A stretch of DNA of 56,775 nucleotides from contig QYQN01000002.1 of assembly GCA_007280895.1 (NCBI GenBank), positions 1 to 56,775 on the forward strand. The letters are read 5' to 3'. The notes under the pieces are model-generated. The model was given only the letters and a program-made list of their open reading frames with translations. It did no database searches and had not been told where the DNA came from. Made by a program: the position numbers and the translations under genes. The DNA is from Methylococcaceae bacterium (GTDB lineage Bacteria; Pseudomonadota; Gammaproteobacteria; Methylococcales; Methylomonadaceae). Shown here in pieces: positions 39,405-51,517 of this stretch. Every line of letters begins with the position of its first letter. Position 1 is the first letter of the stretch.

Positions 39405-39647
39405 TTACTTGTTATGTTGAAGTAAGGTTTCAAGGTCGTCTAAAAGTTGTTTTAGGTATTCGGCTTCCTGCAAGATATCAAGGTGGTTTTCTTTGTACAG
39501 CGTGATCAAGCTCTGTTGATGGGTTATGTTTTGTAAAGAGGGTGTTTCTGTTTCGGCGAGTGGCGAAATACTCTTAGCTGTTTCGGTGTTAGTATCCGCC
39601 AGTAAAGACTCCAAGCCTCTACCTAAACCGCGTTTTTTTGTGGTCAT
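39405..39647 (-). CDS. ParB N-terminal-like miniprotein (lacks CTPase and HTH domains)
   Basis: 80 aa. MTTKKRGLGRGLESLLADTNTE matches the start of the adjacent ParB (KRGLGRGLDALLGD), followed by a low-complexity and helix-prone tail. Confidence 0.75.
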   Translation of the reverse strand: MTTKKRGLGRGLESLLADTNTETAKSISPLAETETPSLQNITHQQSLITLYKENHLDILQEAEYLKQLLDDLETLLQHNK

Positions 39648-40417: not shown

Positions 40418-41107
40418 TTAAGATTCCAAGGTAGAGGCTAAGAGGGTTATGGCGGTTATTTGAATCACACAACGTTCAGCGTTTACGCCAGGAAGACTAA
40501 GGGGGGTGCAGTGCGTATGCGCACTCATTGTACTGGGTAATGTGGCTATTTCAGTTGCTGCGTGTTGACCTTTCATAGCAAGCAATTGCCCGTCTGGGTG
40601 GATGACATGGGCAGTTAGTTTAATAATATCCTGAAGACTGGCAAAGGCACGTGTTATCGCAGTATCGTAAAGTAGCTCAGGGATATAGGTTTCCACGCGT
40701 TGATGAAGGACGGCAACATTGGTGAGTTTTAATTCCACTATTGCTTGTTGTACAAAGCGTGTTTTTTTAGCGTTACTGTCCAGCAACATAAACTGTTTGT
40801 CTGGACACGCTATCGCTAAAGGAATGCCTGGCAAGCCAGCTCCCGTACCAATATCAATAATGCGCTCACCTAAAACGAGGGGCTGAATGGCTAGGCTATC
40901 AATGATGTGTAATTTAATCATTTCGTCGATAGCGTTAATCGCCGTGAGATTGTAGATTTTATTCCATTTTTGAATTAATAAGATAAACAGACTCAGTTGC
41001 TCAAGCTGGACATGAGAAAGTGTGATATTTAATGCCTTAATGCTTGTTTCTAAAAGCGTTTGGCAAGATGTTGGCAGCTGAGTAGAGGACTTTTTGGCAA
41101 CATTCAT
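40418..41107 (-). CDS. rsmG: 16S rRNA m7G527 methyltransferase
   Basis: KWNKIYNLTAINAIDEMIKLHIIDSLAI, RIIDIGTGAGLPGIPLAIACPDKQFMLLDSNAKKTRFVQQAI. Confidence 0.97.
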   Translation of the reverse strand: MNVAKKSSTQLPTSCQTLLETSIKALNITLSHVQLEQLSLFILLIQKWNKIYNLTAINAIDEMIKLHIIDSLAIQPLVLGERIIDIGTGAGLPGIPLAIACPDKQFMLLDSNAKKTRFVQQAIVELKLTNVAVLHQRVETYIPELLYDTAITRAFASLQDIIKLTAHVIHPDGQLLAMKGQHAATEIATLPSTMSAHTHCTPLSLPGVNAERCVIQITAITLLASTLES

Positions 41108-42978
41108 TAGGCAGATTTCTTTTTTAAATAAACCAATAACAAGGAAATGGCAGCAGGAGTGATCCCAGGAATTCGTGAGGCTTGTCCTAAGGTTTCAGGG
41201 CGTTGCTTGCGTAGTTTTTCGCTGACTTCATTGGAAAGACCCGTGATCGTGAAGTAGTCAAGGGTTAAGGGTAATTTTAAGTGATCGTAACGCAGTGACT
41301 TATCAATTTCAGTTTGTTGACGCGTGATATAGCCTGCATATTTAGCTTGTATTTCAACTTGTTCAGTGACGTGCTCGGGATACTCAAATGTATGCTCAGC
41401 CAGTGCAAGTAAGCCTTGAATATCCACTTCTGGACGACGTAATAATTCCATAAGATTGGCTTCTTTTAGTAAGGGTTTACCCCAGCGCTCAGCCACTTCT
41501 TGTGCAGCAACACTTTCTGTGCGCACCCATTGTTTTTTCATGGTGTCTTGCAGGTCTGTAATAGCGGTACGTTTGTTTTCAAAGCTTGCCCAGCGGTTAT
41601 CAGCCACTAAGCCCAATTCGCGACCTGTGGGGGTCAGGCGTAAATCCGCATTATCTTCGCGTAATAACAATCGGTATTCGGCACGACTGGTGAACATACG
41701 GTAAGGCTCTTGAGTGCCGCGCGTGATTAAATCATCAATCATTACGCCAATGTAAGCCTCATCACGTCTTGGGCACCAACTGTCAAGCTCTTTGCACTGA
41801 CGAGCAGCATTTAGCCCAGCAATTAAACCTTGAGCAGCGGCTTCTTCATAGCCAGTGGTACCATTAATTTGACCAGCAAAAAATAAACCCTGAACCTGTT
41901 TGGTTTCTAAGGACGCTTTTAAGTCGCGAGGGTCAAAAAAATCATATTCAATCGCATAGCCTGGTCGGACAATCTCAGCGTTTTCAAAGCCAGTCATTGA
42001 GCGAACAAACTCATATTGCACGTCAAAAGGGAGACTTGTCGAAATGCCATTGGGATAAATTTCATGAGTATCCAAACCTTCAGGTTCAACAAAAATTTGA
42101 TGACTATCGCGCTCAGCAAAGCGAACAACTTTATCTTCGATTGACGGACAATAGCGTGGACCAATGCCTTCAATAACGCCAGAGTATAGTGGTGAGCGAT
42201 CTAAGCCTGCACGAATAATTGCGTGGGTTTTTTCATTAGTGCGAGTGATATAGCAGGGAATTTGTTGGGGATGCTGCGCACGGTGTCCCATAAAGGAAAA
42301 CACGGGAACCGGTTGATCGCCCTCTTGTCGTTCGAGCTTGGTAAAATCAATGGTACGGCCATCAAGGCGAGGGGGGGTGCCAGTTTTTAAGCGTTCCACA
42401 CGAAATGACATAGCACGTAAACGTTCAGCTAACAGTGTGGAAGCAGAATCGCCGGCACGCCCGCCACTGTAGTGTTCAAGGCCAATATGAATTTTACCTG
42501 CTAAAAAAGTACCGGCCGTTAATACCACAGCACGAGCATAAAAGCACAGTCCCATTTGAGTTTTAACACCAATAACGCGATCGTGTTCGATAATTAAATC
42601 TGCGGCCATTTGTTGAAAAAGCGATAAATTGACCTGATTTTCTAAATGGTAACGAATTGCGCGTTTATATAATATACGATCTGCTTGGGCACGTGTGGCG
42701 CGTACAGCGGGGCCTTTGCTGGCATTTAAAGTGCGAAATTGAATGCCCGATAAATCAATAGCATGCGCCATGATGCCACCTAAGGCATCAATTTCTTTAA
42801 CTAAATGACCTTTACCAATGCCGCCAATGGCAGGATTGCAACTCATTTGCCCAAGGGTCTCAATATTTTGCGATAATAATAAGGTATTTGCGCCGCAACG
42901 TGCCGACGCTAACGCAGCTTCGGTGCCAGCATGACCGCCACCGATAACAATGACATCAAAATGTTTTTTGAATTTCAC
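41107..42978 (-). CDS. mnmG: tRNA uridine-5-carboxymethylaminomethyl modification enzyme MnmG
   Basis: [62 protein letters not shown]. Confidence 0.99.
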
Positions 42979-43038
42979 AAGTTTTGTTAATCTATTGGTA
43001 AGAAGTTAATTTTTAAACGCTATTATAAGAGGTAAACG

Positions 43039-43245
43039 ATGAAAAAAAGTAAAAAACGACAACATTCTATTGATAAAACTGTGCCGAATGTGATTAGAAA
43101 CCCCGTTGCAAAGTTTGCTCATCAGGTGAATAAAACAAGTTTTTTTCGTGATAAAACCAAATATTGCCGTCAAGGTAAGCATCAAGGCCAGGAGGCTTCG
43201 CCGATAATTTTTATAAAAATTATCGGCGAAGCCTCCTGTGCATAG
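43039..43245 (+). CDS. arfA: ArfA-like alternative ribosome-rescue factor with in-ORF palindrome
   Basis: 68 aa. VIRNPVAKFAHQVNKTSFFRDKTKYCRQGKHQGQEAS resembles the ArfA core (..DPLFRxRVEKxKKGKGSYxRKxKH..). SD-like aagaggt before ATG. The 3' coding end is a perfect palindrome. Confidence 0.65.
   Translation: MKKSKKRQHSIDKTVPNVIRNPVAKFAHQVNKTSFFRDKTKYCRQGKHQGQEASPIIFIKIIGEASCA
43189..43238. repeat. Perfect 50-bp palindrome within the ArfA-like ORF
   Basis: caggaggcttcgccgataattttta / taaaaattatcggcgaagcctcctg, 25-bp arms with no mismatch and no spacer. Confidence 0.95.
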
Positions 43246-43348
43246 TGCAGGCACTAGGCGCAAGCCGTATTGCACCAAACCTTGAGCCATCAAGCGTCGC
43301 AATACGGCTTGGCAACTGCTCCGACGTCGCCTAGTGCGACCTATGCAC
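43238..43348. repeat. 111-bp interrupted inverted repeat
   Basis: Arm blocks gtgcatag/ctatgcac (43238-43245/43341-43348), gcactaggcg/cgcctagtgc (43251-43260/43328-43337), caagccgtattgc/gcaatacggcttg (43261-43273/43299-43311). Confidence 0.85.
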
Positions 43349-43388
43349 TGAGTCGTTACGAAATATGTGTAATGAAAGAGGTGTGTAA

Positions 43389-43784
43389 TTATTTTTGCTT
43401 AAACTGATGAATTAAGCGACGTTCTTTTTTATTGGGTTTGTAGCAGCGCAAACTAAAGGGCACAAGTTCGCGTTGTTCTCGTTCGATGGCGCGTTGTGCT
43501 TGGCGTTTAGTGATACTTTCTGGGCTTTCACTGTAAAGTAAAGCCGCGTCTTTGGCGGCACGACGTTGGCTACTGAGCGCCGTGACGGTAATTTCCCAGC
43601 GTAAATTATCTTTGCTGAGGGTAATTATTGCGCCCACACGAATCTCTTTACCTGCTTTAGAGCGTTGATTATTAACATGCACCTTGCCGCCGGTAATGGC
43701 CGCTGCGGCGAGGCTGCGTGTTTTATAAAAACGGGCTGCCCATAGCCATTTATCTAGGCGGATGCAGTCTAATTGAGTCGTCAC
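43389..43784 (-). CDS. hslR: S4-domain ribosome-associated heat shock protein Hsp15
   Basis: [49 protein letters not shown]. Confidence 0.93.
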
Positions 43785-51404: not shown

Positions 51405-51517
51405 GGGGGGCTAATAAAACCGCCGCGAAAACATGCTGTGTCGTTTAGTTAGCGTCATTACTACAAGGGTGCACTAGGCTATAGCCGTATTGCACCGTAA
51501 GTATTGCTTAATATCAG

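Follow-up and report, generated by a model that had tools for sequence, protein, structure and literature searches.

The small open reading frame at positions 43039-43245 of the 56,775-nucleotide stretch of Methylococcaceae DNA analysed here (the window) raises the question of why a gene should carry a long, perfect palindrome inside the end of its own coding sequence. In the case of both ArfA (PMC8012679) and BrfA (PMC6881298), production of a ribosome rescue factor from stop-less mRNA ties its synthesis to the failure of trans-translation, and the background on E. coli arfA has been covered in reviews (PMC8012679, PMC13159725). An earlier note on this DNA had proposed that the frame encodes a factor of the ArfA type. 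The evidence assembled below makes it probable that the product, a member of the family DUF7230, is a rescue factor of a diverged ArfA type which recruits a release factor and is made from a stop-less message under the control of a hairpin. The hairpin gene itself is real and under clear selection. Its features, all on the plus strand, are as follows.

43026-43038, plus strand: Shine-Dalgarno-like AAGAGGTAAACG within a conserved TATTATAAGAGGTAAAC(G/C)ATG block, as seen in the upstream regions of orthologues
43039-43245, plus strand: DUF7230 open reading frame of 68 codons (Pfam PF23876, E=4.1e-16), encoding a putative ArfA-type ribosome rescue factor, with its stop codon 3' of the hairpin
43090-43203, plus strand: conserved DUF7230 core, running from where the profile match begins as far as the QEAS codons (conservation among 118 sequences)
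43159-43182, plus strand: K-Y-x-R-x-x-K-H segment, here KYCRQGKH, whose columns hhalign aligns with the ArfA KGKGSYxRKxKH tail
43189-43213, plus strand: 5' arm of the hairpin, a perfect palindrome inside the frame
43214-43238, plus strand: 3' arm of the hairpin, followed by the stop codon at 43243-43245

The frame translates as MKKSKKRQHSIDKTVPNVIRNPVAKFAHQVNKTSFFRDKTKYCRQGKHQGQEASPIIFIKIIGEASCA, ending in the stop codon. It is flanked, as the earlier note had described, by two minus-strand genes: mnmG upstream (41107-42978; GIDA, E=4e-171) and, downstream, a gene for an S4-domain protein consistent with hslR (43389-43784), with which the frame is convergent. Divergent mnmG is found upstream at 94 of 122 DUF7230 loci, and the gene has therefore been kept vertically. 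A scan of the window against Rfam gave no match.

The identity of the protein is best settled at the level of the family. With 59.3 bits against a curated cut-off of 27, the frame belongs to DUF7230, a Pfam family of uncharacterised function (PF23876). The search against the Pfam ArfA family that the earlier note had suggested went the other way, PF03889 (curated cut-off 25.5 bits) giving no match to the frame even at E<=10. A search of NCBIfam with the frame returned no family, a sequence search of the PDB no match, and a plasmid search with the family consensus likewise none; a literature search brought up no mention of DUF7230, and the papers retrieved on alternative ribosome rescue and methylotrophs did not, by title and abstract, concern rescue in methanotrophs. 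Within the same family-level group, here called methanotrophs on the strength of one named relative, 133 of the 151 genomes sampled encode a DUF7230 protein, and the family occurs in 39 of 61 relatives. Beyond that it is sporadic: 14 of 321 genomes have it in the class, and at the level of the phylum the count is 6 of 399, which includes several weak matches. A scan of genome contigs with the one sequence yielded a single close relative, an uncultured Methylococcaceae MAG whose protein is 81% identical. Some genomes hold two DUF7230 genes (L093/L094, L106/L107 and L108/L109), while in genome G415 the second gene (L113) is without a hairpin. At L121 (genome G014) the DUF7230 match is split over two frames, a possible frameshift or assembly error, and a 21-bp hairpin is still there.

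How, then, does DUF7230 relate to ArfA (YhdL; PF03889; E. coli and other gamma- and betaproteobacteria)? Both are small basic proteins that share a K..Y.RK.KH tail, and hhalign places only this tail, 17 columns long, in alignment at a probability of 60. The profile score of 26.6 nevertheless lies above the maximum of 19.4 reached over 150 column permutations, and an ArfA HMM built here ranks 68 of 118 DUF7230 proteins above all 1,169 shuffled sequences. The KYCRQGKH columns of the present protein match the ArfA tail, which enters the empty mRNA channel (PMC8012679, PMC6881298); the KH motif, kept in the DUF7230 frame, contacts 16S rRNA in ArfA and BrfA (PMC6881298), and by analogy the segment may make the same contacts here. 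There are also differences: DUF7230 has an NPVAK..hqFNKA..F.DK segment in place of the ArfA LxxDPLFRQRVExxKKGKGS, and the RGxIxDN-type N-terminus is absent from it.

The link becomes wider through proteins of other lineages (L178, L189, L190, L041 and L177; for example MEAKLKRNPIAKSLRSPHLRLQVVKNKKTYSRKIKHKKGG...), which align with each of the two families over 37 columns, at probability 87 with ArfA and 95.6 with DUF7230, neither score being reached in any of 100 permutations. Only by way of these intermediates can the RF2-contacting segment of ArfA (around DPLF25RQR) be aligned with DUF7230. An in-frame stem was found in three of four inspected genes of this intermediate type, one followed by a T-run and another by T-rich sequence. 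L178 and L187-L190 are short proteins of a different lineage within the phylum and seem to stand between DUF7230 and ArfA. On these alignments DUF7230 is read as a remote homologue of ArfA, convergence being a live rival; the resemblance of the core to ArfA claimed in the earlier note holds as a remote relation, direct over 17 columns and complete through the intermediates, and fails as membership of PF03889.

That rival would make DUF7230 an independently evolved, release-factor-dependent rescue factor, much as BrfA or ArfT is, its likeness to ArfA confined to the KH tail and the logic of the stop-less mRNA. It is a variant of the preferred explanation, with the same working and another ancestry, such that the confidence placed in the two overlaps. 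The silence of PF03889 and the shortness of the direct similarity both suit it, and BrfA offers a precedent, uniting a KH motif with termination inside the reading frame despite a separate origin (PMC6881298). However, a bridge to both families that includes the SPhL..qVV.nKK segment, and a weak match of E. coli ArfA itself to the DUF7230 profile (E=0.11), speak for shared descent, and a convergent origin is on balance rather unlikely.

Other known rescue factors may be compared by their descriptions. BrfA (Bacillus subtilis YqkK) resembles the DUF7230 gene in the structure within its frame that gives a stop-less mRNA and in its KH motif (PMC6881298), but it relies on an intrinsic terminator, and its N-terminal helices are not evident in DUF7230. 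ArfT of Francisella, as a short basic backup to tmRNA that uses a release factor (PMC6299226), is close to what is proposed for DUF7230, yet it has a KKGGSTNKK stretch, works with RF1 or RF2, and seemingly lacks control by termination or RNase III. ArfB is an RF-1-domain peptidyl-tRNA hydrolase with a GGQ domain, whereas the present frame has no GGQ.

The second line of evidence is the hairpin. At this locus the two 25-nucleotide arms are 100% complementary with no spacer and span codons 51-67, exactly the perfect palindrome within the coding end that had been described from the sequence. Folding of the region, which the earlier note had proposed as a check, gives -57.8 kcal/mol (z=-8.6), a value equalled by none of 200 shuffles. 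The layout corresponds to that of arfA, the 5' arm covering codons 51-58 of 68 in this gene and codons 51-58 of 71 in an E. coli-like ArfA. When PF03889 loci are passed through the same pipeline, 21 of 35 show a strong stem, with the loop centre usually 12-16 codons past an anchor of KGKGSY plus five residues, and 19 of these 21 have their stop codon downstream of the 5' arm, so that the claim of an arfA-like geometry in a divergent sequence is borne out. The encoded tail is hydrophobic as had been claimed, if only moderately so at this locus; as a family mean its GRAVY is +0.49, whereas the core averages -1.37 and tails shuffled by dinucleotide +0.05.

The hairpin belongs to the gene family, beyond this one locus. 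In the 130 nt past the core, a stem score of at least 12 is reached at 112 of 121 distinct loci; none of 363 dinucleotide shuffles scores as high, and among 3' ends of other open reading frames from the same loci 7 of 181 do. The 115 distinct hairpins have a median stem of 24 pairs and a loop mostly of 4 nt. The position of the loop centre relative to the KH codons has a median absolute deviation of 0 nt, compared with 21 nt relative to the stop, and half of the 115 genes share the identical nucleotide offset of the loop from the Lys-His motif. As for the stop codon, 92 hairpins end ahead of it, 19 contain it within the 3' arm and 4 within the loop, and no gene has it before the 5' arm; a cut or a transcript end inside the 5' arm would thus always give a stop-less message.

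Moreover, the stem covaries. Among 43 diverged copies with mutual identity below 80%, double compensatory changes are seen at 24 of the 25 pairs. The stem has a covariation score of 0.675, whereas shuffles give 0.237 and slid partners no more than 0.176; choosing the aligned hairpins by stem position inflates the share of paired cells in these figures, though not the number of covarying pair types. RNAalifold recovers the stem independently. Even the closest relative (L116) carries double compensatory changes, at 43199/43228 (CG to GC), 43202/43225 (CG to TA) and 43206/43221 (AT to GC). Some of its pair changes alter amino acids while the stem is kept and, together with the covariation in the diverged copies, this indicates that the RNA structure is what is maintained. 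More than 100 orthologues, then, hold a conserved, covarying hairpin fixed to the Lys-His motif, where the earlier note had named orthologues lacking both an in-frame hairpin and the KGKxxY/KH region as an outcome that would speak against it. The comparative data thus lend strong support to its idea of an ArfA-like core joined to a hairpin that yields a stop-less mRNA. A comparable in-frame hairpin is absent from five bacterial DUF7230 genes (L036, L037, L040, L042 and L113) and from the phage gene L184; some of the hairpin-less proteins are also without the KH motif, and the Pfam family may therefore hold other functions.

Could the hairpin be an ordinary, possibly bidirectional, terminator between the frame and the convergent hslR, overlapping the end of a gene for some unrelated small basic protein? 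The convergent arrangement invites this reading, as do the U-tracts found in some relatives (T5 at the end of the 3' arm in 14 of the 115 hairpins; present in L013, L038 and L039). Yet the loop keeps its distance to the KH codons and not to the stop, and no stop lies ahead of the 5' arm; most of the hairpins, this one included (TGTGCATAGTG follows the palindrome), have no U-tract; and the median stem of 24 bp far exceeds what a terminator needs and suits an RNase III substrate. A mere terminator is accordingly considered improbable. The long stem without a U-tract at this locus points to RNase III, as the earlier note had argued from the missing U-tract; that argument fits this gene and most relatives and may not hold for the 14 with T5. 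Intrinsic termination may be used in some DUF7230 lineages, as it is in some ArfA genes and in BrfA.

A dispersed repeat immediately downstream (about 43250-43348) might suggest that the palindrome, too, is mobile or repetitive DNA which landed in the end of an unrelated frame. This is ruled out by the palindrome's single copy in the host genome and by orthologues that keep the hairpin at the same codons with diverged and covarying arms. The downstream sequence is separate from the in-frame palindrome: it forms an imperfect inverted repeat of ~110 bp just past the stop codon (43237-43360 of the window) and belongs to a dispersed family of which the genome carries some ten partial copies, one of them at 51471-51496.

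The host genome provides the setting. It has a tmRNA gene; its RF-1-domain proteins are RF1 and RF2 with no third, and hence ArfB was not detected. The host RF2 keeps V198 and F217 (positions counted on the printed alignment) of the ArfA pocket, whose role has been described (PMC6299226). None of the 61 relatives has a PF03889 match at E<=0.01, and 22 of them have neither DUF7230 nor ArfA. In the class-level sample, the 14 genomes with DUF7230 and the 7 with ArfA, out of 321, are disjoint; with ~0.3 overlaps expected, this is no more than chance would give. A genome with tmRNA and RF2 and with no ArfA or ArfB found fits, without proving, a lineage in which DUF7230 serves as the backup rescue factor.

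Away from the ribosome, proteins of the ArfA type are largely unstructured. Under the ArfA-type explanation preferred here, a ribosome that has stalled on a message lacking a stop codon would take the K..Y.R..KH tail of the DUF7230 protein into its empty mRNA channel, and the middle part of the protein would recruit a release factor of class I, RF2 being the most likely one, such that the peptide is freed. Its own mRNA would form the 25-bp hairpin over codons 51-67, which would be cleaved, most likely by RNase III, with loss of the stop codon and stalling of the very ribosome that makes the factor. While tmRNA and SmpB are working, the product would be tagged and destroyed; once tmRNA can no longer keep up, a shortened but active factor, about 50-58 residues long, would accumulate. 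Any full-length protein would have the hydrophobic tail and may be unstable. Cutting by RNase III, rescue activity, dependence on RF2 and instability of the tail are what we infer from these patterns.

DUF7230 proteins with the KH motif are also encoded by Pseudomonas and Xanthomonas phages, those of Pseudomonas phages PAK_P4 and vB_Pa-PAC2 and Xanthomonas phage XacN1 (L184, L185 and L186) having a Y.RK.KH-like motif. None of the three phage genes inspected has a comparable in-frame hairpin; the Xanthomonas phage gene has a 13-bp stem across its stop codon, and that of vB_Pa-PAC2 a weak A+T-rich stem near the stop. A broader picture may be put forward tentatively, as one possibility among several, in which DUF7230 and ArfA, along with the intermediates found in a different lineage of the phylum, are branches of a single old superfamily of release-factor recruiters, the methanotroph branch being held in reserve by an RNase III-type hairpin within the frame and Pseudomonas phages carrying a stripped, hairpin-less version for constitutive rescue during infection.

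Should the ArfA-type explanation be correct, DUF7230 would gain a testable function, and an apparent gap would be filled, in that a methanotroph lineage in which ArfA is not detectable (nor ArfB, in the single genome checked for it) would possess backup rescue. According to a suggestion by the authors of the BrfA study, rescue systems yet to be identified exist in many bacteria (PMC6881298). In a survey from 2024, ArfA was confined to the B. subtilis group and some of the gamma- and betaproteobacteria (PMC11633108). Short basic reading frames with a conserved hairpin just past a KH motif would offer a search handle that could reveal further rescue factors.

Two smaller observations may be added. 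In phage PAK_P4, the DUF7230 gene overlaps with the one that follows, whose annotation reads putative RNA methyltransferase. Elsewhere in the window, an 80-aa open reading frame without a Pfam match (39405-39647, minus strand) lies between parA and parB, and its N-terminus carries a ParB-like motif (KKRGLGRGLESLLAD).
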